Assembly: GCF_023806625.1 (NCBI RefSeq)
Contig: NZ_JAMTDX010000008.1
Span: 154,246 to 218,245 of the forward strand
Direction of reading: 5' to 3'
Source: Accumulibacter sp.
GTDB lineage: Bacteria > Pseudomonadota > Gammaproteobacteria > Burkholderiales > Rhodocyclaceae
Length of the DNA: 64,000 nucleotides
Position numbers and translations under genes: made by a program. The notes under the pieces are model-generated. The model ran no database searches. It was not told where the DNA came from and worked only from the letters and a program-made list of their open reading frames with translations. Positions 5,604 through 52,496 of the stretch are shown here, piece after piece (position 1 is the stretch's first letter; every line of letters starts with the position of its first letter).

Positions 5604-5625
5604 GATGGGGCCACACCCTACCCGA

Positions 5626-6414: not shown

Positions 6415-6420
6415 GACCGT

Positions 6421-7215: not shown

Positions 7216-7242
7216 CGAATCTCCTTCGGCTCCGCGGCCGGG

Positions 7243-8508
7243 CTAAAGAAACCGGAAATCGGGTTCGGGTCGGCAACCACTGACGATGTCGGCGAGGGCC
7301 GCGCCCGAACCACAAGCCATCGTCCAGCCAAGCGTCCCGTGCCCCGTGTTGATGAACAGATCGGCCACCGGTGAGCGGCCGATCAACGGCACGTTCGACG
7401 GCGTCGCCGGGCGCAGCCCGCACCAGAAAAGCGCCTCGCCAGCCGGGCGCAGGTCCGGGAACAGCTCGTTGACCCTGCTGATCAGCGCTGCGCAGCGCAC
7501 GGCGTTGAGCTCGAGGTTGTAACCGTTGAACTCGGCTGTCCCGGCGACTCGCAAGCGCTGGCCGAGGCGCGAGATGACGATCTTGCGGCCGTCGTCGGTC
7601 AGACTGACCCGGGGCGCGACGCTCTGCGCAGTGAGCGGGATCGTCGCCGAATAGCCCTTGGCCGGATACACGGCCAGACGCAGGCCGAGCGGCCGCAGCA
7701 AGAGCGGCGTGTAACTGCCGAGCGCGGCTACGTACGCGTCGGCCGAGTGTACCTGGCCACCGGCGAGCACCCCGGTCATCCGCCCGGAGTCGGCGAGCAG
7801 CCGGTCGATCGCCAGCCCGAAGTGGAACTCGACGCCGCTCTCGACGCAGCGCTCGGCAAGTTGCCGCGTAAAACGATGCGCGTCGCCCGATTCGTCGGCC
7901 TCGGTGTAGTCGCCGCCGACCAGCAGACGCCGCGCTGCGACCAGCGCGGGTTCGATCGCCAGACATTCGTCGACACTCACCGTGCGTCGGTCGCAACCGA
8001 ACTCGCGCATCACCGCGGCAGCGCCGATCGCCGAGGAGAATTCGCGGCGATCGGTATAGACGTGGAGGATTCCCCGCCCGAGGTGGTCGTAGTCGAGCGC
8101 AAGCTCGGAGCGCAGTTCCTGGAGTTTCCGCCGGCTGTACAGCGCCAGCGCAACGATCTGGCGGACATTGTCGCGCGCCCGCTGCGCGGTGCACTCGCGC
8201 AGGAAACGCAGGCTCCAGTCGAACAGTGCCGGGTCCCAGCGGGCCCGAAAGAGCAACGGCGAGTCCTCGCGACGCATCCAGGCCAGGGCGCGCAGCGGAG
8301 TGTGCGGGTTGGCCCAGGGTTCGGCGTGCGAAACCGAAATCTGGCCACCGTTGGCAAAGCTGGTCTCCAGGGCGGCAGCCGGCTGCCGATCGATCACCGT
8401 CACCCGATGTCCGGCCCTGGCCAGATACCACGCGCTGCTGACGCCGACGACGCCGGCTCCTAGAACCAGGACCTTCAAGGCTTCAGCAGGCCGGCACGAA
8501 GACGGCAC
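7243..8508 (-). CDS. dadA: D-amino acid dehydrogenase small subunit
   Basis: 421 residues. FAD-binding GxGxxG is in VLVLGAGVVGVSSAWYL, and the chain follows the DadA/DAO family to the end (FANGGQISVSHAEPWANP, PAKGYSATIPL, RLRVAGTAEFNGYN, FWCGLRPATPSNVPLIG, TGHGTLGWTMACGSG). It oxidises D-amino acids such as D-alanine to 2-oxo acids and ammonia at the membrane, feeding electrons to quinone. The canonical protein starts at Lys-Val-Leu-Val-Leu; a TTG at 8478 gives exactly that N-terminus, while the ATG at 8508 adds ten residues, so the start is uncertain. Confidence 0.88.
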   Translation of the reverse strand: MPSSCRPAEALKVLVLGAGVVGVSSAWYLARAGHRVTVIDRQPAAALETSFANGGQISVSHAEPWANPHTPLRALAWMRREDSPLLFRARWDPALFDWSLRFLRECTAQRARDNVRQIVALALYSRRKLQELRSELALDYDHLGRGILHVYTDRREFSSAIGAAAVMREFGCDRRTVSVDECLAIEPALVAARRLLVGGDYTEADESGDAHRFTRQLAERCVESGVEFHFGLAIDRLLADSGRMTGVLAGGQVHSADAYVAALGSYTPLLLRPLGLRLAVYPAKGYSATIPLTAQSVAPRVSLTDDGRKIVISRLGQRLRVAGTAEFNGYNLELNAVRCAALISRVNELFPDLRPAGEALFWCGLRPATPSNVPLIGRSPVADLFINTGHGTLGWTMACGSGAALADIVSGCRPEPDFRFL

Positions 8509-8580: not shown

Positions 8581-10914
8581 TCACTCGGCGCCTCCCTGAT
8601 CGCGGGTGATGCGCACGACCTCGGGAAGCCGGCGCAGACCGCGCATCAGGCGCGCCAGTGAAGTGCGACTGGTGACCTGCACGGTGAAGTGCAGCGTGGT
8701 GTACAGCCCGGGATGCTTCTCATCCATCTTGACGTGCTCGATGTTCGTCCCCGAACGCGATATCTCGCTGGCGATCCGGCCCAGCGCGCCGACCGTGTTC
8801 TGCAGGACGATGCGCAGGCGGACGCTGAACAACTTGCCCGGCTCGGGCTCCCACTCGACCTCGATCCACTTTGCCGGCCTGGCGCTGCGCACCCTGCGGA
8901 TCGCCGGACAGTCGTGGGTGTGGATGACCAGCCCCTTGCCCTTCCAGATCGAACCGATGATCGGATCGCCCGGAATCGGCTGACAACAGGGAGCAAACTG
9001 CACGGACATGCCCTCCGTGCCGCGAATGACCAGCGCGGCAGGGGGCTTGCCGGCCGGCTCACGCGACTCCTCGCGGGCCAGCAGCCGCCTGGCAACGACG
9101 CCGGCCATACGGAAGCCCAGGCCGATGTCCGCGTACACCTCCTTGATCAGCTTGTTCCCCGAATCGCGCAGGACGTTCTTCCAGCTCGACACCGGCAGCT
9201 CGGAGGCGACGACGCCAAGAGCCCTGAGTTCCTGATCGAGCATCTTCTCGCCGAGTGCCGTCGACTCGTCGTGATGAGCGCTCTTCAGATAGTGACGAAT
9301 CTTGCTGCGCGCCCGGCCGGTCTTGACCGAACCCAGCCAGGCCGCGTTGGGATGGGCGTCGGCAGCGGTGACGATCTCGACGCGGTCGCCGTTGGTGAGC
9401 TCGGTCGACAGCGGCATCGGCTTGTAGTTGATCTGCGCAGCGACACAATGATTCCCGATGTCGGTGTGCACTGCGTAGGCAAGGTCGATCGCCGTCGCCC
9501 CGCGCGGCAGGGGAATGATCTTGCCTTTCGGGGTGAACACGTAGATCTCGTGCGGGAACAGGTCGACCTTGACGTGCTCGAAGAACTCGGACGTATCGCC
9601 GCTGGCGTTCTGCAGGTCGAGCAGCGACTGGAACCACTTGGTCGTCTTCTGCTGCAGGTCGGCGCCGAAGTGCTCATTGTCCTTGTACAACCAGTGCGAG
9701 GCGATTCCCTCCTGAGCGACGTAGTCCATCGACTCGGTGCGGATCTGCACTTCGAAGGGCGTGCCGTGCGGACCGATCAGCGTCGTATGCAGCGACTGGT
9801 AACCGTTCGGCTTGGGGATCGCGATGTAGTCCTTGAACTTCCCCGGAACGGGCTTGTACAGGGCATGCAGAGCGCCAAGCGCAAGGTAGGCGGTCGGCAC
9901 GTCCTTGACCAGGACGCGGAACCCATAGACGTCGAGCACCTGCGAAAACGACAGCCGCTTCTCGATCATCTTGCGATAGATCGAGTACAGGCTCTTCTCG
10001 CGGCCAACAACCTGAGCCTCGATGCGCGCCTCGCGCAGGCGGCCCCTGATCCCGTCGAGGATTCGCGACAGCAGCTCGCGCCGGTTGCCCCGCGCGGACT
10101 TCAGCGCGCGCGCCAGTACGCCGGCGCGCATCGGGTAGATCAGCTCGAAGGAGAGGTCCTGCAGCTCGTGGTAAAGCTTGTTCAGCCCGAGCCGATTGGC
10201 GATCGGTGCGTAGATCTCGAGCGTCTCGCGGGCGATCCGGCGGCGCTTGTCGGCGCGTACTGCAGCCATCGTCTGCAGATTGTGGTGTCGGTCGGCGAGC
10301 TTGATCAGCACGACGCGCAGATCGCGCGCCATGGCCATCAGCATCTTGCGGAAATTCTCGGCCTGGGCTTCCTCGTGCGACTGGAACTCGATCTTGTCGA
10401 GCTTCGATAGACCATCGACGAGTTCGGCGACCGGCTCGCCGAAGCGCTCGGCGATCGTTCTCTTGCCCACCGCCGTGTCCTCCATCACGTCGTGGAGCAG
10501 TGCGGCGACGACGCCCTCGACGTCCATCTGCCATTCGGCGATGGCCCCGGCGACGGCCAGCGGATGAGTGATGTAGGGTTCGCCCGAGAGGCGCCTCTGC
10601 CCGCGATGAGCCTGTTCGCTGAACAGATACGCGTCACGAACGGTGGCGATTTCTTCCGGAGGAAGGTAACTCAGGCTGTCGATGAACACCCGGTACGCCG
10701 GGTCGTCCTCCGGGTCAGGAAAAACGACCAAGTCGCTCGCCGGCGAGTCGGCGGAAACGCTCGCTGGCGCGAGCGCATCCTCGACCGGGCGACCGAGTTC
10801 CCTGCGCATCGACTCGGAGGCTGCGAGTGGATCTGCTGCGCCGCCGATCTGCGACGCTGCTCGCTCGCCCACTTCTCGCCTATCCGTCCGACGTCTCTCG
10901 TCGGTCGCCCACAC
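8581..10914 (-). CDS. spoT: Bifunctional (p)ppGpp synthetase/hydrolase SpoT
   Basis: 777 residues. Domains in order: HD hydrolase (about 80-235) with intact HDVMED at 141-146 and His103 in QAHRGQ; synthetase (about 290-420) with REKSLYSIYRKM, KFKDYIAIPKPNGYQSLHTT and YVAQEGIASHW; TGS domain (VFTPKGKIIPLPRGATAIDL); a CCQP-containing zinc-finger region; and a C-terminal ACT domain. The intact HD site and the basic KFKD motif indicate the bifunctional SpoT/Rel type, able both to make and to hydrolyse (p)ppGpp. The gmk-rpoZ-spoT order, all on one strand, is the classical cluster. The first about 60 residues are poorly conserved, so the true start may be internal. Confidence 0.92.
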   Translation of the reverse strand: MWATDERRRTDRREVGERAASQIGGAADPLAASESMRRELGRPVEDALAPASVSADSPASDLVVFPDPEDDPAYRVFIDSLSYLPPEEIATVRDAYLFSEQAHRGQRRLSGEPYITHPLAVAGAIAEWQMDVEGVVAALLHDVMEDTAVGKRTIAERFGEPVAELVDGLSKLDKIEFQSHEEAQAENFRKMLMAMARDLRVVLIKLADRHHNLQTMAAVRADKRRRIARETLEIYAPIANRLGLNKLYHELQDLSFELIYPMRAGVLARALKSARGNRRELLSRILDGIRGRLREARIEAQVVGREKSLYSIYRKMIEKRLSFSQVLDVYGFRVLVKDVPTAYLALGALHALYKPVPGKFKDYIAIPKPNGYQSLHTTLIGPHGTPFEVQIRTESMDYVAQEGIASHWLYKDNEHFGADLQQKTTKWFQSLLDLQNASGDTSEFFEHVKVDLFPHEIYVFTPKGKIIPLPRGATAIDLAYAVHTDIGNHCVAAQINYKPMPLSTELTNGDRVEIVTAADAHPNAAWLGSVKTGRARSKIRHYLKSAHHDESTALGEKMLDQELRALGVVASELPVSSWKNVLRDSGNKLIKEVYADIGLGFRMAGVVARRLLAREESREPAGKPPAALVIRGTEGMSVQFAPCCQPIPGDPIIGSIWKGKGLVIHTHDCPAIRRVRSARPAKWIEVEWEPEPGKLFSVRLRIVLQNTVGALGRIASEISRSGTNIEHVKMDEKHPGLYTTLHFTVQVTSRTSLARLMRGLRRLPEVVRITRDQGGAE

Positions 10915-12823: not shown

Positions 12824-13213
12824 TCACGGGCGCTTCGGCAGAGCCGGGACGACCATCTCGAACCAGATCGTCTCGACGACCGGACGGCGCAACTCTTCGG
12901 GATGCGCCGCGTACCACCGGTCGAGCGCCTCGAGGACGCCGCCGAGCGTCTGCCCCTTCATCCCAGCCACGACGCGCGGCGAGAAACCCGTCCCCGCGAG
13001 CGACGGGTTTTCGGCGTGGTACGCGGCCTCGACCTGAACCACGTTGGCGAGACCGACCAGATACGCCTTCTTGACGTCCTCGCTCGATTTCACCCACATC
13101 GTCCCATCGACCAGCGGGATCTCCTCGACCACCGCGGCAACCGGGCCGGCAACCAGCGCCAGGCACGCAGCCGAGAGCGGCAGCGCCCATCTGCGCAACA
13201 CTGATCCGACCAT
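12824..13213 (-). CDS. Secreted protein of unknown function
   Basis: 129 residues. A signal peptide (about 1-27, ALVAGPVAA) is followed by a mature domain of about 100 residues without cysteines: helices around SSEDVKKAYLVGLANVVQ and GQTLGGVLEALDRWYAAHP. AGGAGG stands 3 bp before one in-frame ATG (13219) and 9 bp before the next (13213); the second has better spacing. It is 14 bp upstream of the glycine-zipper lipoprotein gene and probably co-transcribed. I do not recognise a named family. Confidence 0.6.
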   Translation of the reverse strand: MVGSVLRRWALPLSAACLALVAGPVAAVVEEIPLVDGTMWVKSSEDVKKAYLVGLANVVQVEAAYHAENPSLAGTGFSPRVVAGMKGQTLGGVLEALDRWYAAHPEELRRPVVETIWFEMVVPALPKRP

Positions 13214-13494
13214 CGTCATCCTCCTTCCCACGTCACGCGAAGAGCCAAGCGTAGCACGATTCGGGCGCGCCGACGCCGCTCGCCTGAAGCCCGCCCGCGG
13301 CGACCGCAAGGCGACGCGGACAGCGTGGCCGACGCGCCACGACGCCCCCCGGCCGCTTCGACGGCCATGGTGGAGCCCACCGCCCGGCGTTTGGCGGATG
13401 CGTTTCGCGACGCTTTCTAGGATAATCCAAAGCCTTCGATACCCTACCGTCGCCCGTCCCCGGGCGACCGACCCGCCGAGTGAAGCGCAAGACA

Positions 13495-14433
13495 GTGAGC
13501 GAAGCCCTTTTTGAAACGAGCATCAGCAGTCTGCCGCTGATTGGACGCGGCAAGGTGCGCGACATCTACGCGGTGGGTTCGGAATCGCTGCTGATCGTCA
13601 CCACCGACCGGATATCGGCGTTTGATGTCGTGTTGCCCGATCCGATTCCCGACAAGGGAAGGGTGCTGACCCGGCTGGCCAGCTTCTGGTTCGACAAGCT
13701 TGCGACGATCGTCCCCAACCAGCTGACCGGAATCGACCCGGAGACGGTCGTCTCGGCCGGCGAGACGGAGCAGGTGCGCGGACGGGCACTGGTCGTCAAA
13801 CGGCTCAGACCGCTGCCGATCGAAGCGGTCGTCCGTGGCTACCTGATCGGCTCAGGCTGGAAGGACTACCAGAGCACCGGCTGCGTCTGCGGAATCGCGC
13901 TGCCGCCCGGGCTGATACTGGCCAGCCGTCTCTGCGAACCGATCTTCACCCCGGCGACGAAGGCGACGATCGGGGAGCACGATCAGAACATCTCTTTCGG
14001 GCAGGCCCAGGCTGCCTGCGCAGCGGCCTTCGCAGACATCTCGCCGGCGCCCGGGCTGCGCTCCGAGGGCATCGCCGATCAAGTGAGAAGAGTAGCCATC
14101 GCCCTGTACGCCAGCGCCGCCGAGTACGCTGCAGAGCGTGGCATCCTGATTGCCGATACCAAGTTCGAATTCGGTCTCGACGTGCACGGCCGGCTGCACC
14201 TGATCGACGAAGTGCTCACCCCGGATTCGTCGCGTTTCTGGCCGGCGGACGGCTATGTTCCGGGCAGCAGCCCGCCGTCGTACGACAAGCAGTTCGTTCG
14301 CGACTATCTCGAGACGCTCGCCTGGGACAAGCAGGCGCCGGGTCCGCGACTGCCACCGGCGGTCATTGCCCGAACCCGGGCCAAGTACGTCGAAGCTTGC
14401 GAACGCCTGACCGGCGAACCGTTTGCCGTCTGA
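13495..14433 (+). CDS. purC: Phosphoribosylaminoimidazole-succinocarboxamide synthase
   Basis: 312 residues. The family landmarks are clear: [54 protein letters not shown] and [17 protein letters not shown]. It ligates CAIR and aspartate with ATP in de novo purine synthesis. Two in-frame GTG codons compete; the one at 13495 gives [16 protein letters not shown], like betaproteobacterial relatives, and the one at 13480 adds five residues. The longer, roughly 310-residue form is typical of this lineage compared with about 237 in E. coli. Confidence 0.92.
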
Positions 14434-14479
14434 GGATCGGCTCGACGGACCACGCGGCCCGGGCAGAAAAGGAGGAACC

Positions 14480-15304
14480 ATGCGACAGACCGGTCAGGAC
14501 GAGACTCGGGGGGCGACGAGAACCGGCTACCCCGAAGTGTGCAGAGTCGAACTCGATCGGCCACTGTCATGGCTGGCGGCAGGCTGGCGCGACCTGCGCG
14601 CGAACCCGATCGCCAGTCTCGCCTATGGTCTGCTCTTCGCGATCGCCGGCGACCTGATCACCATCTTCGCCTGGCGCAACGGGCACCTGTTCATCGTCGC
14701 GACCTCGGGCTTCTTCCTGGTCGCCCCACTGCTCGCCGGCGGACTATACGAAATCAGCCGGAGGCGCGAGGCCGGGCTGTCGTCGACCTTCTTCTCCTCG
14801 CTCGCCGGCGGCCGACGCAACGCCGTCGAACTGTCCAAGTTCGGCCTGCTGCTCGGACTGATCGGTGTCTGCTGGGAACGCCTGTCGACGCTGCTCTTCG
14901 AACTGCTCGCCCCGGGACTGCCCGCCGACCTGCTCGCGTTGCTCGCCGAGATCCACTTCCCGCCCGAAAATCGCGACCTGCTGGCCATATGGATCCTCAC
15001 CGGCGGGACGGTCGCGGCGATCGTCTTCGCGATGACCGTCGTCTCGGTTCCGCTTCTGCTCGACCGCCCGGTGCGCGTCGGCACGGCGATCCTGACCAGC
15101 GTCCGCGCGGTCGACGCCAACCTCATGGTGATGGCGTTCTGGGGAGCGATCGTCGTCGCCCTGACCGCGCTCGGCTTTCTGACGCTGTTCTTCGGTCTCG
15201 TCGTCCTGATGCCGCTGATTGGACACGCCTCCTGGCACGCCTATCGCGACCTCGTCCGGGCCGACGCGGGCGAATCCTCCTCGCCGCATCCGGAATACCG
15301 ATGA
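14480..15304 (+). CDS. DUF2189 family membrane protein
   Basis: 274 residues with six or so hydrophobic segments and the DUF2189-type opening (W-x-x-x-G-W-x-D-L-R-A-N-P, then an AYGLLFAIAG membrane helix). A GGAGG site 5 bp before the ATG decides the start over an earlier in-frame one. Function is unknown; family members are predicted inner-membrane proteins. Its stop overlaps the ATG of the following oligopeptidase gene (ATGA), so the two are translationally coupled. Confidence 0.75.
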   Translation: MRQTGQDETRGATRTGYPEVCRVELDRPLSWLAAGWRDLRANPIASLAYGLLFAIAGDLITIFAWRNGHLFIVATSGFFLVAPLLAGGLYEISRRREAGLSSTFFSSLAGGRRNAVELSKFGLLLGLIGVCWERLSTLLFELLAPGLPADLLALLAEIHFPPENRDLLAIWILTGGTVAAIVFAMTVVSVPLLLDRPVRVGTAILTSVRAVDANLMVMAFWGAIVVALTALGFLTLFFGLVVLMPLIGHASWHAYRDLVRADAGESSSPHPEYR

Positions 15305-17400
15305 CCACCGACACCCCGTACGACAATCCGCTGCTCGACTTCTCGGGCCTGCCCCGCTTTTCAGCGCTGGCGCCGACCCACGTCCGGCCGGCGATCGCCG
15401 AACTCCTCAGCCGCTGTCGTGGCCTTGTCAAGCGCCTGACCCCGGACGAAGTGCCCGCTACCTGGGCCGACTTTGCCGGACCTCTCGGCGACGGTCTCGA
15501 GCAGCTGTCGCGCGCGTGGGGAACGGTCGCTCATCTGCATGCGGTCAACGACATCCCCGACTGGCGCGACGCGTACAACGCGATGCTCCCCGAAGTTGCG
15601 CGTTTCTACGCCGAGGTCGGGCAGAATCTCGCGCTCTTCGCAAAATATCGCGCGCTTGCCGGCAGCGACGAGTACCACCGGCTCAGTGACCAGCAGCGAC
15701 GAGTCGTCGAGCATGAATTGCGCGACTTCCGCCTCGGCGGCGCCGAATTGGCGGACGAGGTCAAACCTCGTTTCCAAGAGCTGATCGAGGAACTGGCGCG
15801 TCTCTCGGCCAAATTCGCGGAAAACCTTCTCGACGCGACCAACGCTTTCGCAGAGCGGGTCACCGACGAGTCCGAACTGACCGGCCTGCCCGACGACGCC
15901 CGTCAGGCGGCGCGCCAGGCCGCCGGGAGGGACGGCCTGGACGGCTGGAAGTTCACCCTGCACATGCCGTCATACCTCCCGGTGATGCAGTACGCGGACA
16001 GTCGGCGCCTGCGCGCGGCGATGTACCGTGCCTACGCGACCCGAGCTTCGGAATTCGGCGCCCCGGAATTCGACAATACGCCGCTGATCCGCAGGATTCT
16101 CGAACTCCGTCGCGAACAGGCCCGGATGCTCGGCTACCCGCACTTCGCCTCCCTCTCGCTGGTCCCGAAAATGGCCGAGTCGGTCGACCAGGTTCTCGAC
16201 TTCCTGCGCGACCTCGCGCGCCGCGCACGCCCTTTCGCCGAGAAGGACGTCGCCGAACTGCGCGAGTTCGCGAGCAGCGAACTGAACATCGACAACCTCG
16301 AGGCGTGGGACGTGGCCTACGCATCCGAAAAGCTCCTGCAGGCGCGCTACGCCTTCTCGGAAAACGAGGTCAAGCAATACTTCACCGAGGACAAGGTCCT
16401 CGCCGGACTGTTCAAGCTGATCGAGACGCTGTTCGACGTACGCATCTCCGAGGACCAGGCGAGCACCTGGCATGACGATGTGCGCTTCTTCCGCATCGAC
16501 AGGCCGGGCGGCGAGCTCGTCGGCCAGTTCTATGTCGATCTCTACGCGCGGGAAAGCAAGCGCGGGGGCGCGTGGATGGACGAAGCCAGGGGTCGCCGCA
16601 GGCTTCGTGAAAGGCTTCCGGCAAGCACCGGCCCGACTGCCCAGACGCCGGTGGCTTACCTGAACTGCAATTTCTCGCCTCCCGTGGCCGGACGCGACGG
16701 GCGATCGCGTCCGGCGACCTTCACTCATGAAGAGGTGGTCACGCTGTTCCACGAGACCGGCCACGGGCTGCACCATCTGCTGACGCGAGTCGACGAACTC
16801 GCCGTCGCCGGCATCCACGGCGTCGAATGGGACGCCGTCGAGTTGCCGTCGCAGTTCATGGAGAACTACTGCTGGGAATGGAGCGTCGTCGAGGGAATGA
16901 GCGCGCATGTCGACAACCGCGCGCCCCTGCCGCGGCAACTGTTCGACCGGATGCTCGCCGCGAGGAACTTCCAGAGCGGCATGCAAACGCTGCGCCAGGT
17001 CGAGTTCGCGCTTTTCGACCTGCTGCTGCACAGTGGCTTCGACCCGGCGAGTGAGCGGAGCGTGCTCGACCTGCTCGACGAGGTTCGGCGCGAGGTCGCG
17101 GTCATCGTTCCACCCGATTGGCACCGCTTTCCGAACGGATTTGCGCACATTTTCGCGGGCGGCTACGCGGCCGGCTATTATAGTTATAAATGGGCGGAGG
17201 TTCTGTCAGCCGACTGTTACGCCGCTTTCGAAGAGGCGGGCAGTCCCTTCGACCCGAGTACCGGACAGCGCTTCCTCAGCGAGATCCTGTCGATGGGCGG
17301 GAGTCGACCGGCGCTCGACAGCTTCCGGGCCTTCCGCGGCCGGGAGCCACAGGTCGATGCTCTGCTCCGGCATAGTGGAATGACTGCTGCGCCGGGCTAA
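15301..17400 (+). CDS. prlC: Oligopeptidase A (M3 family zinc metallopeptidase)
   Basis: 699 residues. The zinc site HETGH is at 484-488 (LFHETGHGLHHLLT), with the third ligand region VEWDAVELPSQFMENYCWE just downstream. Chain length and ends (NPLLDFSGLPRFSALAPTHV; FRGREPQVDALLRHSG) match OpdA/PrlC, a cytoplasmic endopeptidase that degrades signal peptides and short peptides. The ATG at 15301 overlaps the previous stop. A much longer in-frame extension upstream (from 14539) is a shadow of the DUF2189 gene. Confidence 0.93.
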   Translation: MTTDTPYDNPLLDFSGLPRFSALAPTHVRPAIAELLSRCRGLVKRLTPDEVPATWADFAGPLGDGLEQLSRAWGTVAHLHAVNDIPDWRDAYNAMLPEVARFYAEVGQNLALFAKYRALAGSDEYHRLSDQQRRVVEHELRDFRLGGAELADEVKPRFQELIEELARLSAKFAENLLDATNAFAERVTDESELTGLPDDARQAARQAAGRDGLDGWKFTLHMPSYLPVMQYADSRRLRAAMYRAYATRASEFGAPEFDNTPLIRRILELRREQARMLGYPHFASLSLVPKMAESVDQVLDFLRDLARRARPFAEKDVAELREFASSELNIDNLEAWDVAYASEKLLQARYAFSENEVKQYFTEDKVLAGLFKLIETLFDVRISEDQASTWHDDVRFFRIDRPGGELVGQFYVDLYARESKRGGAWMDEARGRRRLRERLPASTGPTAQTPVAYLNCNFSPPVAGRDGRSRPATFTHEEVVTLFHETGHGLHHLLTRVDELAVAGIHGVEWDAVELPSQFMENYCWEWSVVEGMSAHVDNRAPLPRQLFDRMLAARNFQSGMQTLRQVEFALFDLLLHSGFDPASERSVLDLLDEVRREVAVIVPPDWHRFPNGFAHIFAGGYAAGYYSYKWAEVLSADCYAAFEEAGSPFDPSTGQRFLSEILSMGGSRPALDSFRAFRGREPQVDALLRHSGMTAAPG

Positions 17401-43637: not shown

Positions 43638-44387
43638 CTACGTTCCGGCCGATGGCGCCGCGCCGCCGGCCGCGGCGCGATGGCGCGCGCGCAGCGCCAT
43701 GGCCATTTCGAACGCTGCCTTCGTGAAGCTCAGAATTTCGGCGAACTCCTCGTCGCTCAGCGAGCGCGCCTCGTCATGGCTGCGATAGACATTGACGAAC
43801 TGATGCTCGCGCACCGTCTGCAGGACGAGCTTGCCGACGCCGAGCGCCTCGAGGCTCTTCCACAGTTCGGGATTCGAGGTGCGCGTCAGGCGCATCACGA
43901 AGCCGACCGGGTCGTTGCGCCCGAAGACCGCGGCCAGACGCAGGATCACCTCGAACGACAGCGCCAGCCGTCCCTGCTCGATCGCCTCGATCAGCGACGG
44001 GTCCTTGAGATCGATCGCTGCGCCGACCTCGGCAATCGTCAGCCCGGCGGTCTCGCGCATCGCGCGGACCATCTCGCCGGTCTTCACCCAGGCGGCGGTA
44101 TCGCCGACGCCGGGCAGGACCGCGCGGACGACCTCGCTGGCCGCGTCGATCGGATGGCCTTCCTGAAGCGCCCGCGTGACCCTGCCCGCCGTCTCGAGTG
44201 CCTTGCCCGCGACGACCGTCGCTGAACTGATGTCGAGCAGGCGACCGGCCATCGCGCGCACCTGATCGACCAGCCCCGGCTCGGCGGATTCGGGGCTTGC
44301 GGCGGCCGGCTCGGCGGCGGACTTCTTCGTCGTCCTCCTGCTGGCTGAAGGACGGCGCTTATCGGGCGGAGAAGGCGGAGCATTCAT
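43638..44387 (-). CDS. XRE-type helix-turn-helix regulator with accessory domain
   Basis: 249 residues. Residues 105-165 carry the HTH (GEMVRAMRETAGLTIAEVGAAIDLKDPSLI), preceded by a Lys/Ala/Pro-rich linker and a helical segment and followed by about 80 residues including LSDEEFAEILSFTKAAFEMA. It is a likely DNA-binding repressor; the target is unknown. It faces away from the citrate synthase homologue, and the 467-bp space between them would be the natural place for its sites. Confidence 0.7.
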   Translation of the reverse strand: MNAPPSPPDKRRPSASRRTTKKSAAEPAAASPESAEPGLVDQVRAMAGRLLDISSATVVAGKALETAGRVTRALQEGHPIDAASEVVRAVLPGVGDTAAWVKTGEMVRAMRETAGLTIAEVGAAIDLKDPSLIEAIEQGRLALSFEVILRLAAVFGRNDPVGFVMRLTRTSNPELWKSLEALGVGKLVLQTVREHQFVNVYRSHDEARSLSDEEFAEILSFTKAAFEMAMALRARHRAAAGGAAPSAGT

Positions 44388-44854
44388 CGGGAGACGACCC
44401 TCGGCTGACTGACACGGAGCGAGCGCTAGCGTACGGCGCCAGCCCGACGAGGGCAAGCTCCCCGCCGTCGGACCAAGCCAGGCGCGCCGCATCGGCATCG
44501 CCCGATGGACCCGGGACCCCTCCGGCCGACAGGCCGTCGAGCCCACGGCAAGAGCACGGCAGGACACAGCCCCCGTTCCTGGAGGACAACCGGCACGGAT
44601 GCTGCTTGCGTTTTCCCCGGCATTCGGCGAAGCGCCGTGGCCAGGGCTCTGACGACGACCTGATCGTCTGGCGAATCAAGGCCTTGTGGAGACCTAGGCG
44701 GAGCCGGGACGACGCCGGCGAGACCGGCCCGCGCCCGCGCGCGGTGCGCCGGACGCGTACGATGCCCCGAAGTGGCGCAGCGCACGGAGACGCCGAAACG
44801 CGTGACCGCGCTGGGCGGCCGTAACTCAAAAGACTTCCGGAAAGGAGCAAGGCA
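44388..44854. other. 467-bp intergenic stretch between HTH regulator and citrate synthase homologue
   Basis: Divergent promoter region. No credible ORF on either strand, no tandem repeat, no convincing -35/-10 pair. A strong ribosome-binding site (GGAAAGGAGCAAGG) sits just before the ATG at 44855. Its length is unusual in this compact genome and is compatible with regulated transcription. Confidence 0.5.
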
Positions 44855-46204
44855 ATGCACTGCGTGGGCGAGGCGACGTTCACAGCCGATGGCGACAAGT
44901 CCGTGCCGATCCCGATCATCGTGCCGACCTACGGCCGACCGTGTCTCGACATCCGCAGCCTCGGCACGACGACGGCGTGCTTCGCCTACGACCCGGGATT
45001 CGTGTCGACAGCCCCGTGCCGGTCGAAGATCAGCCACGTCGACGACGAGCGCGGCGAACTGCTCTACCACGGCTATCCGGTCGAGCAACTCGCCGAGCGT
45101 TGCGACCATTTCGACGTCGCCCATCTGCTCAGGCACGGCGAGTTGCCCGACTCCGCCGAGAAGCGGCGCCTCCGGACGGCGATCGCCAGCCAGGCGCTCG
45201 TGCACCAGCAGATGGTCCGGCTTTACGAAAGCTTTCGCCGCGACGCGCGTCCGCTGCCGGTGATCATGGGCATCGTCGCGGCGCTCTCGGCTTTCGACGA
45301 GGCCGACGCCGACTACGCCGATCCCGCGTGGCGAGCGATCTGCTTCGCGCGGCTCGTCGCGCGGATGCCGGCGATCGTCGCGATGGCCTACAAGTACTCG
45401 GTCGGCCAGCCGTTCATGACCCCCCGGCCGGACCTCGGCTACGGCGAGAACCTGCTGCAGATGCTCTTCGGCACTCTGCGCGAGACGCCGCCAGACAACG
45501 CCGTGCTCGCGCGCGCCGTCGAGCGCCTGCTGATCGTCTTTGCCGACTATGGGCAGGACGCCGCGACGACAACCGTGCGCATGGCCGGGTCTTCGGGCGC
45601 CAACCCCTTCGTCTGCATTTCGGCCGGCATCGCCTGCCTTTCGGGCCCTGCCCACGGCGGCGCCAGCGAAGCCTGCCTGGCGCTGATCGACCAAATCGAC
45701 GACGCCGCGCCGGCCGCCGCCTTCGTTGCGCGGGCGACGAGCGGCGACGGCAGGCAACCGTGCCTGCCCGGATTCGGCGATCCCGATTTCGGCGCGCGCG
45801 ACCCGCGGGTTCCGGTTCTGCGCCGGACGCTCGCCGAGGTGATCGAGGAACGCGGGCTCGAGCAGCACCGCCTGTTCAGGAAGGCCCGGGCGATCGAGCA
45901 GGTGGCCTTCGAGCACCCCGAACTCGTCGCCCGCGGCCTGCAGCCCAACGCCCACTTCTACGCCGGACTGATCCTCGGCGCGATCGGCCTGCCGCCGTCG
46001 ATGTGGGGTTGCCTCCTCGCCCTCGCGCGCACCGCCGGATGGCTCGCGCACTGGGAGGAAATGCTCACCGACCCGGAATACCGGATCGCCCGCCCACGCC
46101 AGATCTACTGCGGAGTGACCCGGCGCCACCTGGCGCGACCGCCGGCTTCCTGCGCCAGCACGCCGGCTTGTGCAGCGCTTCGAGGTCCGGGCGACGCCCG
46201 CTGA
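44855..46204 (+). CDS. Citrate synthase family protein with substituted active-site residues
   Basis: 449 residues, collinear over its whole length with the hexameric GltA-type citrate synthase (DIRSLGTTTACFAYDPGF, LYHGYPVEQLAE, YKYSVGQPFMTPRPDLGY, SSGANPFVCISAGIACLSGPAHGG, ARTAGWLAHWEEML, IARPRQIYCG). Of the catalytic residues of E. coli GltA, only His264 is kept (H267, GPAHGG). The His of ADHEQN is Tyr232 (ADYGQD), His305 of GFGHRVY is Asp309 (GFGDPDF), and Asp362 of VDFYSG is His367 (AHFYAG). Normal citrate synthesis is therefore doubtful. The alignment needs almost no gaps, so these are substitutions, not frameshifts. About 20 extra C-terminal residues look unconserved. Confidence 0.85.
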   Translation: MHCVGEATFTADGDKSVPIPIIVPTYGRPCLDIRSLGTTTACFAYDPGFVSTAPCRSKISHVDDERGELLYHGYPVEQLAERCDHFDVAHLLRHGELPDSAEKRRLRTAIASQALVHQQMVRLYESFRRDARPLPVIMGIVAALSAFDEADADYADPAWRAICFARLVARMPAIVAMAYKYSVGQPFMTPRPDLGYGENLLQMLFGTLRETPPDNAVLARAVERLLIVFADYGQDAATTTVRMAGSSGANPFVCISAGIACLSGPAHGGASEACLALIDQIDDAAPAAAFVARATSGDGRQPCLPGFGDPDFGARDPRVPVLRRTLAEVIEERGLEQHRLFRKARAIEQVAFEHPELVARGLQPNAHFYAGLILGAIGLPPSMWGCLLALARTAGWLAHWEEMLTDPEYRIARPRQIYCGVTRRHLARPPASCASTPACAALRGPGDAR

Positions 46205-46344
46205 ACACCTGTTGCACGAGCGTCCAGCGATCACGCTCGACGAGGGGAACCCCGATGATCTTCTCGAACCAGTTCTGAATGCGCTGCACGGTCACTGCCT
46301 CCTGTGAGATGTTGGGCTGCCGGACCCTCGAGGAAAGCGCTCAC

Positions 46345-46374
46345 AGCATAGCCGAAGACTGTACACATGTACAG
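46345..46374 (-). promoter_or_regulatory. Possible LexA-type box overlapping a minus-strand promoter
   Basis: CTGTACACATGTACAG (46359-46374) fits the CTGT-N8-ACAG pattern of LexA sites in proteobacteria. On the minus strand it overlaps TGTACA (46368-46373) followed after 17 bp by TATGCT (46345-46350), a fair sigma-70 promoter. Downstream on that strand is AGGAGG and a GTG at 46295. No recognisable product follows, so the site may be a relic or may instead be a terminator read from the plus strand. Confidence 0.35.
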
Positions 46375-46383
46375 GCTTTTTTT
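46359..46383 (+). terminator. Possible intrinsic terminator of the citrate synthase homologue
   Basis: Inverted repeat CTGTAC / GTACAG with a four-base loop followed by GC and seven T residues, about 155 bases after the stop codon and between convergent genes. The stem is short and AT-rich compared with the genome; the same bases form the LexA-like pattern on the other strand. Confidence 0.45.
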
Positions 46384-46392
46384 CTTGCGAGG

Positions 46393-47010
46393 CTACTCGG
46401 GAAGACGCAGGCGATGCAGCAGGCAGGCGAGCAGGACGAACAGCGGACCGTTGATCAGCAGGCTGACCGGCAGGAAGCCCCAGGTGAGTGCGTCCTGCGC
46501 GTAGTATTCTTCTCCCATCGCGGCCAGCCAGACGTAGCAGTCCTTGGCCAGCAGGTGAACGATCCGCTGGGATGCGGCGACGTGGAAGCCGAGCACGACG
46601 GTATGCACGGCGGCGACGACCAGCACGGCCGAGAGCGCGACGCCCCGCACCCCCGGGTTGTCGCGCAGGAACTGCCGGGCGTCCCTGGAGGTCAGCAGCC
46701 AGCCGAGCGCAATCAGGAGCAGGCTGAAGCTCGACCAGACGACCTTGGTATAGGAATCCTTCTCGGCCTTGAGCGCGTCGTGGAGCAGCTCGAAGCGGAC
46801 CTTGGCGATCTCCGCCAACAGCGGGTCGCTGCCCTGCACGGCGTCGCGCGTCGCCTCGCTGGTCGCCGCTTCAGCAACGGCGGCTGGCGCGCCAGCCGCG
46901 CCCGTCGCGATCAGGCAACGGTCGACCCGCCGGTCGTCGCTATCGGCCGCGCCGGCGGCTGCGGCGAAAACGCCGGCGAGCAGGACGATCAGCGCGATCA
47001 CCCGGTGCAT
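46393..47010 (-). CDS. Membrane protein of unknown function
   Basis: 205 residues: signal peptide (1-22), a periplasmic stretch of about 65 residues with one cysteine, then four membrane helices (about 93-110, 124-146, 150-170, 180-200). No family recognised. The ATG at 47010 is chosen for the signal peptide (IALIVLLAGVFAAAAGA). Confidence 0.6.
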   Translation of the reverse strand: MHRVIALIVLLAGVFAAAAGAADSDDRRVDRCLIATGAAGAPAAVAEAATSEATRDAVQGSDPLLAEIAKVRFELLHDALKAEKDSYTKVVWSSFSLLLIALGWLLTSRDARQFLRDNPGVRGVALSAVLVVAAVHTVVLGFHVAASQRIVHLLAKDCYVWLAAMGEEYYAQDALTWGFLPVSLLINGPLFVLLACLLHRLRLPE

Positions 47011-47143
47011 CGCCCGCCTCTGGCCCGTGCCGTGGCTCGCCGAGCCCACGCCCGCAACACCAATTCCGCGATCCACGCCACGGGCCAGCGGCCCGGACGA
47101 GCGTCGCTGGCCACGGCGGCAGCCGAGCCCGACGAACGGGCGA

Positions 47144-47368
47144 TCAGTTGAAGCGGCAGGCTCCCGGTCCATCCGGGTGGCCGCAGCTGCCGCAGGGGCC
47201 CGGTAGCGCGCTGGCGGCCGGCTGGGCGCTCAACGCCGAGAAAGACGAGAGCTTCTTGCGCAGGTCGGTGCCGTGGCACGCCGGACACTCCGGCTCGGGC
47301 GACGAAGAACGGACGAGCGTTTCGAACTCCTGACCACAGGCCACGCACGCGTATTCGTAAATGGGCAT
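47144..47368 (-). CDS. FmdB family zinc-ribbon protein
   Basis: 74 residues: MPIYEYACVACGQEFE and PECPACHGTDLRKKLSSF give the two CxxC pairs of the FmdB/CxxC zinc ribbon, followed by a flexible tail with CGSCG. The family was first linked to regulation of formamidase/amidase genes; the general role is unclear. Confidence 0.85.
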   Translation of the reverse strand: MPIYEYACVACGQEFETLVRSSSPEPECPACHGTDLRKKLSSFSALSAQPAASALPGPCGSCGHPDGPGACRFN

Positions 47369-48022: not shown

Positions 48023-48317
48023 TCGCTCTCCTCCCTTCGGCTGCCGACCGGACGAGGTCACTCGCCTTGCGCGGCCAGGCTCGTTCGTTACCGCCCACCC
48101 CGGTCACGCATCGCCGGGCAGCGGACGAAGACTACGCGCTTGACGCGAGCGAGGTCAACGGCGAGCAATCGCCGCAGCGGCGGCCGGAGGCGGCGGCCTG
48201 GCAGCGTCTATAATGAGCTTCGAGGCGCTTGGCCTGGAAACTGCTCGCGGCAACAGGCCGTCGCCGCAAACCCCGCCGGGACGCCCTCGAGGTCAGGACG
48301 CAGGACAGGTGTCAGCC

Positions 48318-49421
48318 ATGTTTCGTTTCGCCGATCAGTTCGGTCCGGCCAGGACCATCCACGTCCACGAACCGTCGCTCGGCCTCAAGGGCATTCTGGT
48401 CATCGACAACGTCGCCTGCGGGCCGGCGATTGGCGGATTGCGCATGGCCCCCGACGTCGGCGTCGAAGAGTGTTTCCGCCTGGCGCGCGCGATGACCCTC
48501 AAGAATGCGGCCGCCGGCCTGGCCCACGGCGGCGGCAAATCGGTGCTCTTCGGTGACCCGCGAATGCCGCGCGAGCGCAAGCAGGCGCTGATCCGGGCCT
48601 TCGCCCACGCGCTGCGCAACGAGCGCGACTATCTCTTCGGTCCGGACATGGGCACCGACGAAGCGTGCATGGCCTGGGTCCGCGACGAGATCGGCCGCGC
48701 CGTCGGCCTGCCCGCCGAACTCGGCGGGATTCCGCTCGACGAGATCGGCGCGACCGGCTGGGGGCTCTGTCACGCGGCGCTCGCCGCTCTGCCGTACTGC
48801 GGCCTGGACCTCGCCGGAGCGCGCCTGGCGATCCAGGGATTCGGCGCCGTCGGCCGGCACGCCGCGCGCTTCCTGACCGCCCGGGGGGCAGTGCTGGTCG
48901 CCGCCGCCGACAGCCGCGGCACGCTCGTCGACGACGGCGGAATCGACGTCGAGGCGCTGATCCGCGACAAGCGCGCCGGCCTCGGGGTTTGCGAACACGC
49001 GCGCGGCGAGCGGCGATCGGTCGACGCGGTGATCGACGTCGAGTGCGACATCTGGGTTCCCGCCGCCCGCCCCGACGTGATCCGCGAGGACAACGTCGAT
49101 CGCCTGCGCACACGGCTCGTGCTCGAGGGCGCGAACATCCCGTTCAGCGCCGAGGCCGAGCGCCGGCTGCACGAACGCGGCGTGTGCGTCGTTCCCGACT
49201 TCATCGCCAACGCCGGCGGGGTGATCTGCGCGGCGCTCGAGTATCGCGGTTCGACGCAGGCGGCGGCGTTCGCGACGATCGCCGAGCGGGTGACGCAGAA
49301 CACCGCCGAGACGCTCGAACGCGCCAGGGTTGCCGGGATCCTGCCGCGCCGGGCAGCGCTCGACATGGCCACCCAGCGCGTGCAGAAAGCGATGAGTCTG
49401 CGCCGCTTCACGATCTTCTGA
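48318..49421 (+). CDS. Glu/Leu/Phe/Val-type amino-acid dehydrogenase
   Basis: 367 residues: GLKGILVIDNVACGPAIGGLR-type N-terminus, catalytic Lys in AHGGGKSVLFG, FGPDMGTDEACM, Rossmann motif IQGFGAVGRHAARFL, and NAGGVICAALEY. It oxidatively deaminates an amino acid to a 2-oxo acid with NAD(P). The length and motifs are closest to leucine/valine/phenylalanine dehydrogenases; substrate cannot be fixed. It is followed after 11 bp by 2-oxoacid:ferredoxin oxidoreductase genes that could take its product. Confidence 0.85.
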   Translation: MFRFADQFGPARTIHVHEPSLGLKGILVIDNVACGPAIGGLRMAPDVGVEECFRLARAMTLKNAAAGLAHGGGKSVLFGDPRMPRERKQALIRAFAHALRNERDYLFGPDMGTDEACMAWVRDEIGRAVGLPAELGGIPLDEIGATGWGLCHAALAALPYCGLDLAGARLAIQGFGAVGRHAARFLTARGAVLVAAADSRGTLVDDGGIDVEALIRDKRAGLGVCEHARGERRSVDAVIDVECDIWVPAARPDVIREDNVDRLRTRLVLEGANIPFSAEAERRLHERGVCVVPDFIANAGGVICAALEYRGSTQAAAFATIAERVTQNTAETLERARVAGILPRRAALDMATQRVQKAMSLRRFTIF

Positions 49422-49432
49422 TCGCCCCGGGC

Positions 49433-50353
49433 ATGTACCGGATCCGTTTTCACGGGCGCGGCGGCCAGGGAATCCGCACCGCGGCGAGCGTCCTCGGCAG
49501 CGCCCTCTTCGCCTCCGGCCGCGAGGTCCAGGATGCGCCGCGCTACGGCGCCGAACGGCGCGGCGCGCCGATGTCGGCCCACGTTCGCGCCGGGCGGTCG
49601 GTGATCGTCGAACGCGGCGCGATCGCTCAGCCGGATCTCGTCGTCGTCGCCGACCCGACGCTGCTCGCCGGCGGCGTGCTGCAGGGCCTCTCCGCGCAGA
49701 GCGTGCTGTTCCTCAACGGCAGCGAGCCGGCCGACGAGTTGCGCACGCGACTCGCCTGCCCGGGCCGCGTGGTCACCTGGCCCGGCGCGGCGCGCGAGCT
49801 CGAAGAGACCACCGGGGTGGCGATCGGCGCGCTCTGCGCCGGCGGCGCAGCCCGCCTGCTCGGGGTGATCTCGCGCACGACGCTCGAGCAGGCGCTGCTC
49901 GCCGAGATCGCCGGCCACGGCAGCGGCGCCGCCGAGGCCGGCCGCGCGCTCGGTCTCGCCGGCTTCGACGCGCTCGCCGACAGTGCCGGAATGGTCGGCG
50001 AAGGCGTCGACGACCCCGGAGCCGGCGACGCGCCGCCCGACTGGGTGCGCCTTGCGCTCGACGACGCGAGCCTCGCCGCCCCCGACGTCTTTCGCGAAGC
50101 GACCAGCGAGCTCGTCCAGACCGGCCTCTGGCGGACTTCACGACCGGTCATCGACGCGGCGCTGTGCTCGCGCTGTTCGTGGGTGTGCACCACGCTCTGT
50201 CCGGACAGCGCGATCCACGCCAAAGCCGGCGAGGTCCCGCAGATCGACTACGAGCACTGCAAGGGCTGTCTGGTCTGCGTCCTCGCCTGCCCGCCGCACG
50301 CCATCCGGGCGCTTCCCGAGCGCCAGCCGGCGACGGCCGGCAACCCGCGATGA
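49433..50353 (+). CDS. 2-oxoacid:ferredoxin oxidoreductase gamma-delta fusion subunit
   Basis: 306 residues. Residues 1-180 are the gamma domain (RFHGRGGQGIRTAASVLG, GREVQDAPRYGAERRG, LVVVADPTLL); a linker of about 60 residues leads to a two-cluster ferredoxin (delta) domain with CSRCSWVCTTLCP and CKGCLVCVLACPP. The first cluster motif has an x3 spacing between the second and third Cys instead of x2. Together with the next two genes it makes a complete alpha-beta-gamma-delta enzyme that oxidises 2-oxo acids to acyl-CoA and reduces ferredoxin. Confidence 0.85.
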   Translation: MYRIRFHGRGGQGIRTAASVLGSALFASGREVQDAPRYGAERRGAPMSAHVRAGRSVIVERGAIAQPDLVVVADPTLLAGGVLQGLSAQSVLFLNGSEPADELRTRLACPGRVVTWPGAARELEETTGVAIGALCAGGAARLLGVISRTTLEQALLAEIAGHGSGAAEAGRALGLAGFDALADSAGMVGEGVDDPGAGDAPPDWVRLALDDASLAAPDVFREATSELVQTGLWRTSRPVIDAALCSRCSWVCTTLCPDSAIHAKAGEVPQIDYEHCKGCLVCVLACPPHAIRALPERQPATAGNPR

Positions 50354-51585
50354 GCCGCGTCCTGCTCAACGGCAACGCCGCCGCGGCATGGGGCGCGCGG
50401 CTCGCGCGCGTCGACTACGTCCCGGCCTTTCCGATCACCCCGCAGACGGGAATCATCGAGACGCTCGCCGCGTGGTTCGCCAGCGGCGACGCCGAGGGCC
50501 GGATGACCACCTGCGAATCGGAGCACTCGATGGTCACCGCGGCGGCCGCCGCGGCGGCCACCGGCGTGCGCGTGTTCACCGCGACCTCGAGCCAGGGCCT
50601 GCTCTACGCGATGGAGATGGTCTTCGCCGTTCCCGGCTGGCGCGCGCCGTTCGTGCTGGTCAACGTCTCGCGCGCGCTGGCCACGCCGATCACCCTCGAG
50701 CCCGACCATAGCGACGTCCTCGCCGCGCGCGACAGCGGCTTCCTGCAGATCCACTGCGCGAGCTGCCAGGAAGTCCTCGACAGCGTGCTGCTCGCCTACC
50801 GCCTCGGCGAAGACCCGCGCGTGCGCCTGCCGGTGATCGTCAACCAGGACGGCTTCCACCTCTCGTTCACCCGCGAGCCCGTCGACCTCCCCGACGCCGC
50901 CGCGGTCGACGCCTTTCTACCGCCGTTCGACGCGCAGCAGGCCGGCTTTCGCGCCAGCCGCCCGGTCAGCCAGGCGGTCGCGGTGCTCGGCGGATCGCCC
51001 TATTCGTACTTCCGCTATCAGGTGCACCTCGCCCAGAACGCCGCGCTCGCCGCCTACGACGAGATCGCCGCCGACTTCGCCGCACGCTTCGCCCGGCAGC
51101 ACCCGGCGGTCGAGGCCTACCGCTGCGACGACGCCGAGATCGTCTACTTCCTGATCGGCTCGCTCTCGGCGAGGGCGCGACTCGCCGCCGACCGGTTGCG
51201 CGCGAGCGGCCTGCGCGTCGGCGTCGTCCGCCCGCGCCTGCTCCGCCCCTACCCCGCTGCCGCGCTGCGCGCGCTGCTCGCCGGCAAGCGCGCCGTCGCG
51301 GTGGTCGACCAGAACCTGTCGATGGGCAGCGGCGGCATCCTGCACGGCGAACTCGGCGGCGCGCTGCACGGGCACGCGGACATGCCGCTGCTGCTCAGCT
51401 TCGTCGGCGGACTCGGCGGCCGCGAGGTCAGCGACGGCGAATTTGCCGCGATGGCCCGCGAAGCGTTCGCCGCCGCGCGCTCGGGCGAGGTCCCCGAAGC
51501 CCGCCTGCTGTACACCGCAGGCGAACTGCGCGAACTGCGCAAGCTGCAGGCCGTCGCCGGCCTGGCGCCCGGGAGCCCGCGGTGA
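50350..51585 (+). CDS. 2-oxoacid:ferredoxin oxidoreductase alpha subunit
   Basis: 411 residues: VDYVPAFPITPQTGIIETLA, CESEHSMVTAAAAAAATG, FTATSSQGLLYAMEM, SRALATPITLEPDHSD, and the C-terminal domain VVDQNLSMGSGGILHGEL. This is the PorA/VorA pattern for pyruvate or branched/aromatic 2-oxo acids. Start and stop overlap the neighbours by 4 bp on both sides, so expression is coupled. Confidence 0.88.
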   Translation: MSRVLLNGNAAAAWGARLARVDYVPAFPITPQTGIIETLAAWFASGDAEGRMTTCESEHSMVTAAAAAAATGVRVFTATSSQGLLYAMEMVFAVPGWRAPFVLVNVSRALATPITLEPDHSDVLAARDSGFLQIHCASCQEVLDSVLLAYRLGEDPRVRLPVIVNQDGFHLSFTREPVDLPDAAAVDAFLPPFDAQQAGFRASRPVSQAVAVLGGSPYSYFRYQVHLAQNAALAAYDEIAADFAARFARQHPAVEAYRCDDAEIVYFLIGSLSARARLAADRLRASGLRVGVVRPRLLRPYPAAALRALLAGKRAVAVVDQNLSMGSGGILHGELGGALHGHADMPLLLSFVGGLGGREVSDGEFAAMAREAFAAARSGEVPEARLLYTAGELRELRKLQAVAGLAPGSPR

Positions 51586-52496
51586 GCGAGGCGCGCTACC
51601 GCAGCCTCCGCGAGTTGCCCGGAGTCCATGCGCTGGCCGCCGGAACGGCGATGTGCGCCGGCTGCGGCGGCCTCGAAGCGCTCCACGAAGTGCTCGACGT
51701 CCTCGGCACGCGAACCGTGGTGATCAACGCCGCCGGCTGCATGACGCTGCTCGCCAGCTACCCCTTCACCCCGTTCCACGGCTCGTGGCTGTACACCTCG
51801 ATGGCCTCGGCGCCGGCCGGCGCGCAGGGCGTGCGCGACGCCCTCGACCTGCTCCGCAGCCGCGGCCGGATCGGCGCGGACGACGATCTGACCGCCGTCG
51901 TACTCAGCGGCGACGGATCGGCCTACGGCATGGGTCTGTCGGCAACCTCGGCGGCGATCGAGCGCGGACTCGACTTCATCTACCTCTGCTACGACAACGA
52001 GGGCTACGGCAACACCGGGCAGCAGACCTCGGCCGCGACGCCGCACGGCGCGCGCACGCCGACGAGCCCCGGGCCTGCCGGTCATGCGGGCGAGAAGAAG
52101 GACCTCTTCGACGTCTGGGTCGCGCACCGGCCGCGCTACGCGGCGACGGTCATCGGCGCCGAGCCGCTGGACCTCGCGCGCAAGGTCCAGCGCGCGGCAA
52201 GCCTCGCCGGCCCGCGCCTGATCCTCGCGCTCGCCCCCTGCCCGACCGGCTGGGACTACGATCCGATGCACGGCGTCGACATCGGCCGACTCGCCGTGCG
52301 CACCGGAATCTGGCCGCTCAAGGAATACGTCGACGGCGCCGTCGTCCACACCCACGTGCCGCACCCGCGCCTGCCCGTCGAGGCCTACCTGAGCACCCAG
52401 GGGCGCTTCCGCCATCTCTTCGAGCCGCTGCGCAACGACGCGCTGATCGGCGAGATCCAGCAGCGCGTCGACCGCTACTGGCAGAACGTCGGCTGA
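51582..52496 (+). CDS. 2-oxoacid:ferredoxin oxidoreductase beta subunit (TPP-binding)
   Basis: 304 residues: [4Fe-4S] cysteines in MCAGCGG and NAAGCMTLL, TPP/Mg motif SGDGSAYGMGLS with the later NEGYGNTGQQTS. It carries thiamine diphosphate and the catalytic site. GTG start overlaps the alpha-subunit stop. Likely substrates, given the upstream dehydrogenase, are 2-oxoisovalerate, phenylpyruvate or pyruvate. Confidence 0.88.
   Translation: MSEARYRSLRELPGVHALAAGTAMCAGCGGLEALHEVLDVLGTRTVVINAAGCMTLLASYPFTPFHGSWLYTSMASAPAGAQGVRDALDLLRSRGRIGADDDLTAVVLSGDGSAYGMGLSATSAAIERGLDFIYLCYDNEGYGNTGQQTSAATPHGARTPTSPGPAGHAGEKKDLFDVWVAHRPRYAATVIGAEPLDLARKVQRAASLAGPRLILALAPCPTGWDYDPMHGVDIGRLAVRTGIWPLKEYVDGAVVHTHVPHPRLPVEAYLSTQGRFRHLFEPLRNDALIGEIQQRVDRYWQNVG

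Follow-up and report, generated by a model that had tools for sequence, protein, structure and literature searches.

A citrate synthase paralogue of Accumulibacter with a freed active site, usually encoded beside a second glnD

Introduction

What can a citrate synthase be kept for when most of its catalytic residues have been exchanged? This question is raised by one gene in a 64,000-nucleotide stretch of an Accumulibacter genome, the whole of which is called the window here. The initial annotation described its product as a GltA homologue with three of four active-site residues replaced, which might either catalyse another Claisen-type or hydrolytic acyl-CoA reaction or serve as a regulatory pseudoenzyme. 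An Accumulibacter citrate synthase has been detected in a sludge metaproteome, the copy being unspecified in the available part of that report (PMC2289847). In the accessible portions of the open-licence literature, neither a paralogue of this kind nor an additional GlnD was found described for Accumulibacter.

An intact gene with the citrate synthase fold

The citrate synthase paralogue (pseudo-citrate synthase) is encoded on the forward strand at 44855..46204 by an intact open reading frame of 449 amino acids. A Shine-Dalgarno-like AGGAG is present 7 nt before its ATG (44843..44847, forward strand), and a promoter scan of positions 44380-46400 found no sigma-70-type promoter consensus. The GC content at the three codon positions is 0.71/0.52/0.88, against 0.68/0.46/0.90 in the neighbouring leuS. 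A sequencing or frame error is ruled out by this coding-type GC and by the full-length open frame of 23 of the 24 copies described below.

The collinearity with GltA that had been noticed at the outset is borne out along residues 15-425, which follow the citrate synthases of TIGR01798, Pfam PF00285 and the PDB entries 4xgh and 6zu0; the homology to GltA is thus a full-length one. The protein scores 304.5 bits with PF00285 and 459 bits with TIGR01798, slightly below the curated cut-off of 485 bits. Two paralogous relatives that were tested reach 578 and 629 bits, both above that cut-off. PrpC chains are also among the matches, indicating that the superfamily fold is kept. The structure model is of modest quality (mean pLDDT 69.4), with residues 1-57 and 410-449 below 50.

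Replacement of catalytic and NADH-site residues

The window protein was aligned residue by residue with E. coli GltA, whose numbering is used for the columns, and with 58 other GltA rows. Some of these rows represent one gene held in two collections; with E. coli there are 59, of which 55 are distinct. The GltA of one genome (G007), a split match at L159, was excluded from trees and counts. The catalytic columns are invariant across the 58 rows and E. coli. In the window protein, H229 has become Tyr232, H305 Asp309 and D362 His367, and H264 is the only one of the four to be kept, as His267. All of these assignments had been made in the initial annotation and are confirmed by the alignment. A displacement of the residues to other working positions is ruled out, as the motifs align without a gap; the only length differences nearby are an insertion of two residues and a gap of one residue shortly before GFG.

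The motifs around these residues, all on the forward strand, have changed to different degrees. FADYGQD (codons 229-235, 45539..45559) replaces the HADHEQN of GltA, so that H229Y is accompanied by H226F, E230G and N232D (Phe229, Gly233 and Asp235 of the window protein). GPAHGG (codons 264-269, 45644..45661) carries the retained catalytic histidine. GFGDPDFG (codons 306-313, 45770..45793) takes the place of GFGHRVYK through H305D, R306P, V307D, Y308F and K309G, and PNAHFYAG (codons 364-371, 45944..45967) that of PNVDFYSG through V361A, D362H and S365A. F383 is Leu388. The changes at H226, E230, N232 and F383, like those at the NADH site described below, had not been noted in the initial annotation. 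The scaffold was expected to persist, and it does so at SSGANP and ARPRQ. The latter is part of IARPRQ (codons 411-416, 46085..46102), in which Arg413 corresponds to R407; since ARPRQ occurs in E. coli GltA too, it is not peculiar to the window protein. Ala412 is common to all paralogues and E. coli, and the other 58 GltA rows have Gly there. R314, R387 and R407 are the three arginines that hold the dicarboxylate in GltA.

The NADH site is altered as well. H110 and Y145, which we take to be NADH-site residues of E. coli GltA, are Gln113 and Asp148, and K167 and C206 are Arg170 and Arg209. None of the four residues by which an NADH-regulated, hexameric (type II) enzyme was to be recognised is thus present. 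The window protein resembles type-I/hexameric GltA (TIGR01798) in fold, full-length collinearity and ligand arginines; it differs in the replacement of H229, H305, D362, F383 and several NADH-site residues.

In E. coli citrate synthase, K167 and C206 are both tied to the formation of the hexamer and to control by NADH, and F383 contacts acetyl-CoA (PMC11167817). In Caulobacter, the CitA variants H303A and H303W (H303 being equivalent to H305) do not rescue an E. coli gltA deletion but still perform the cell-cycle role of CitA; loss of citA is compensated by suppressors in ptsP, which belongs to the nitrogen-related PTS (PMC7083601, eLife 2020). CitA offers the likeness of a citrate synthase with an activity-independent role. 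It is, however, a functional enzyme with an additional role, whereas in the paralogue the active-site residues are naturally gone in most of the genus. Given these residue roles in E. coli and Caulobacter, the window protein should not perform the condensation or show a GltA-like response to NADH, and its citrate synthase activity has in all likelihood been lost.

Other citrate synthases of the genome

The window's genome (4.09 Mb, 114 contigs) contains four genes of the citrate synthase family. A search for a normal gltA had been suggested, and one was found in a TCA-cycle operon on contig C11, in the order sdhB, sdhE, gltA and 2-oxoglutarate dehydrogenase E1. The window protein is 47-49% identical to this GltA. 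A second type-I citrate synthase on contig C86 has intact motifs except for GPDHGG. The genome, therefore, need not rely on the window gene to make citrate. The fourth gene, on contig C83, is distinct and has retained its own motifs; its product, putatively PrpC-like, has the same superfamily fold as the window protein but is only 28% identical to it. Relatives of the C86 class, 43-46% identical to the query, occur in 11 of the 28 Accumulibacter genomes, the motifs having been read in the C86 copy (L002) only.

Of these 28 genomes, 26 have a canonical GltA, counting the split match in G007. It was not found in G021 (90% complete) and G027 (93% complete), both of which carry the paralogue. The sdhB of the operon was not found in these two genomes either, only homologues of 36% identity, and an assembly gap, the simple reading of the missing gltA, is likely.

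A paralogue family in the genus

The paralogue is carried by 24 of the 28 Accumulibacter genomes, that of the window included; it was not found in G002, G017, G019 and G022. The copies form one clade with a support of 100/100, apart from 25 canonical GltA rows, and the identity of the other copies to the window protein is only about 50-61%. Relatives sharing the same Tyr/Asp/His set had been proposed as a check. Relatives do exist, yet none of them has the full set and only two share the Tyr.

The catalytic residues have been lost in different combinations. H229 is kept in 7 of the 24 paralogues, H264 in 18, H305 in 9, D362 in 19 and F383 in 2. Three of the four catalytic residues (229/264/305/362) remain in 13 copies, two in 5, one in 4 and none in 2. 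No copy retains all four, and none retains H229 and H305 together. Seven paralogues retain H229, H264 and D362, and in a subclade of seven that keeps H229, H305 is Leu. In the other 17, H229 has given way to C, N, Q, Y or F, and nine of these keep H305. The replacements of H305 across the family are L, Q, G, D, P, N or S; H264 is lost in six paralogues and D362 in five. The NADH site follows suit, with H110 kept in 8, Y145 in none, K167 in 10 and C206 in 3 of the 24.

Other positions are uniform. N232 is Asp in all 24 paralogues, against Asn in all 58 GltA rows, and E230 to G/A and N268 to S/G are also common to the 24. F363, Y364, R314 and R387 are unchanged in all 24, and R407 is kept in 23 of 23, one copy ending before it. 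That copy, in G024 (L020, C41), has a stop at codon 398, before ARPRQ, and may be a pseudogene.

In a wider search, nine of the best 80 among 383 candidate stretches were Accumulibacter paralogues; the other 71 of these 80 retain H229, H264, H305 and D362. Across 150 genomes of the family, the active-site residues were examined in 26 loci and in both copies of the two genomes with two matches, and an order-level search of 300 genomes was used for ranking only.

Selection on the fold and on the active site

Pairs were ranked by their GltA distance, and pairwise dN/dS (Nei-Gojobori) is given for 45 of the 210 and for five more. In all 50 pairs listed, the value for the paralogue is below 1. The subclade of seven has 0.04-0.10, and the range is 0.15-0.31 elsewhere among the pairs listed and 0.39-0.45 for the window gene against five sister-clade genomes; GltA gives 0.015-0.091 in the same 45 pairs. 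Around the active site, the paralogue shows 0.144 against 0.129 elsewhere (8 pairs), and GltA, split in the same way, 0.012 against 0.037 (7 pairs), the region having been picked after the fast columns were seen, a choice which favours the contrast.

Counted along the paralogue tree, the four columns singled out initially changed 20 times, where domain-matched columns invariant in GltA predict 9.1 changes (P 0.019). Adding H226 and F383, a choice made only once their variation had been seen, gives 34 changes against 13.7 expected (P 0.0007; 0.0006 without domain matching). The excess does not reach significance if the small domain is considered by itself (P 0.08). GltA-invariant columns changed 3.48 times on average in the small domain and 1.08 times in the large one, with the domain limits that we have assumed. 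The three ligand arginines did not change at all, which is not significant by itself (P 0.09); 9 of the 14 GltA-invariant Arg columns never change, so Arg is kept generally. K356 and K309, presumably CoA contacts by homology, changed 10 and 5 times.

The fold is thus constrained, as judged from dN/dS below 1 in all listed pairs, while the active site apparently is not. This combination of a fold under selection with lost catalytic residues is that of a pseudoenzyme. The claim that the gene is selected as a folded protein agrees with its presence in 24 of 28 genomes and with these ratios, and the freed active-site columns lend support, as far as sequence goes, to the suggestion of a regulatory pseudoenzyme. 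The other suggestion, of a different Claisen-type or hydrolytic acyl-CoA reaction, found no support: Tyr/Asp/His is unshared and the replacements vary by lineage.

Origin of the paralogue

The paralogue clade covers both main GltA branches of the genus and has therefore persisted since before their split. In the part around the window gene, the tree of the paralogues matches that of GltA, with the same six genomes as sister and then G018; the agreement was judged by eye, in that part and for the subclade of seven only. As the paralogue tree follows the GltA tree there, a recent foreign acquisition is thought unlikely. The window copy is the longest branch of its clade (1.14). In the free tree, the clade groups with three GltA rows from other genera (97/90), and a constraint joining it with Accumulibacter GltA was not rejected (p-AU 0.204). 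Both a duplication within Accumulibacter and an older origin would be compatible with these trees, and the choice is left open. The best reading is that of a Ca. Accumulibacter-specific, vertically inherited GltA paralogue.

Association with a second glnD

In 22 of the 23 other flanks read, the paralogue lies divergently beside a second glnD, here glnD2. The gene of a 102-aa orphan protein stands between the two in 18 flanks, and a transglutaminase/DUF2126 putative amidoligase gene is present beyond glnD2 in 21. The exception is G013, where the paralogue and glnD2 are about 70 kb apart on one contig. In locus L164, the 102-aa protein gene (9841-10149), also present in L230, overlaps the start of glnD2; its product has no match in Pfam, NCBIfam or PHROGs. 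The same locus contains a circularly permuted ATP-grasp with Alpha-E at 5359-7744 and the transglutaminase with the DUF2126 putative amidoligase at 12974-16351. An interpretation of the large neighbour as an ATP-grasp fusion was rejected, Pfam identifying it as GlnD.

Besides the ordinary glnD, glnD2 occurs in 25 of the 28 Accumulibacter genomes, in pieces in two of them (G004 and G018). A search of 98 other genomes of the family gave a glnD match in 93 of them and no second full copy in any; G047 and G109 have a single copy in two pieces. GlnD2 retains the nucleotidyltransferase and HD motifs. It forms its own clade in a tree of 23 GlnD2, 8 GlnD1 and 9 other rows, from which the pieces of G004 and G018 were excluded. 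Three of the four genomes without the paralogue are also without glnD2 (Fisher 0.0012, kinship ignored), and two of these three are only 87-88% complete. In the fourth, G019 (L230, C114), glnD2 is present and the paralogue is cleanly missing from an otherwise matching locus. The empty site has ATP-grasp/Alpha-E on one side and the 102-aa gene, glnD2 and DUF2126 on the other.

In the window's own genome, the glnD copies are on contigs C81 (L178) and C62 (L179), and glnD2 is on a contig other than that of the window gene. The 102-aa gene, the paralogue and DUF2126 were not found in the 18 kb read around it. The earlier description of the gene as standing alone beside an HTH gene is true in this genome but misleading for the family, in view of the pairing with glnD2. 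The divergent HTH gene (HTH_31/HTH_3 by Pfam; 43638..44384, reverse strand) is a neighbour here only. Its frame has no match in the 23 other paralogue flanks, relatives of it occur elsewhere in 22 of the 28 genomes, and none of the window's other neighbours was found at three HTH loci read in other species. The gap of about 470 bp between the two genes holds if the HTH gene starts at ATG 44384; its frame is open to GTG 44567. We infer that the window copy was relocated from the glnD2 locus and that the HTH neighbour is incidental. On the other side, the frame at 46393-47172 has no family match and was found in 1 of the 28 genomes, its own. A Glu/Leu-type dehydrogenase gene and then 2-oxoacid:ferredoxin oxidoreductase genes lie at 48213-52496.

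Proposed role and alternatives

With the acid-base residues, the acetyl-CoA contact and the NADH-site residues lost, the window protein very probably does not make citrate. The gene is rather probably that of a non-catalytic, regulatory citrate synthase paralogue, that is, a pseudoenzyme. With the GltA fold and the three arginines kept, it would act as a protein and not as a catalyst. It would bind a TCA-cycle carboxylate or join a partner, both of them conjectural, and report the carbon status, most likely to the nitrogen signalling of GlnD2, the direction being presumed. The large domain and the carboxylate arginines are what selection has best preserved. Nitrogen signalling through GlnD2 is proposed because of the linkage and the co-occurrence with glnD2. 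A direct link between the two proteins is a tentative lead. So is the idea of a private Accumulibacter carbon-nitrogen module, in which a non-catalytic carboxylate sensor would control or report to GlnD2. The adjacency could be old synteny without function, and the shared absence of both genes could be a block loss. The seven strongly constrained paralogues with H229, H264 and D362 kept could retain a weak or altered activity.

The regulatory reading has a special case, whose odds are counted within it: a dominant-negative or tuning subunit that mixes into the GltA dimer or hexamer, independently of nitrogen. R407 crosses the dimer interface of GltA, and its retention in every copy that reaches it would fit such a subunit, as would the better preservation of the large domain. 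K167, however, is replaced in 14 of 24 paralogues and C206 in 21 of 24, and the linkage is to glnD2, not to gltA; this alternative seems doubtful.

A redundant duplicate in slow decay, in which selection is relaxing, the active site is the first part to erode and the loss of the gene is the end point, would account for the four genomes in which no paralogue was found, the early end of the G024 copy, the G019 locus devoid of the gene, and the moved window copy with its raised dN/dS. Against this, 23 of 24 frames remain open at full length despite the low identity to the window protein, every listed pair shows dN/dS below 1, down to the values of the subclade of seven, and the clade is older than the split of the main GltA branches. 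Such decay is improbable.

Least probable is a neofunctionalised enzyme whose site has been rebuilt for a different reaction of an acyl-CoA or a carboxylate and uses, for instance, the Asp in place of N232: this universal aspartate, the invariant R314, R387, F363 and Y364 and the strongly constrained subclade of seven speak for it, but positions 229, 305, 362 and 383 have no common replacement, F383 is kept in only two copies, and K356 and K309 change often.

Significance

Citrate synthase is a textbook enzyme, and a genus-wide series that has lost different catalytic residues displays the natural evolution of a pseudoenzyme. Since the two members tested pass the TIGR01798 cut-off, paralogues above it would be named citrate synthase, a label that could lead flux models astray for an organism of central importance in biological phosphorus removal. 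A carbon-nitrogen module would suit the cycling carbon storage of phosphorus-removing sludge, and the linkage with glnD2 makes a role in carbon-to-nitrogen signalling directly testable.
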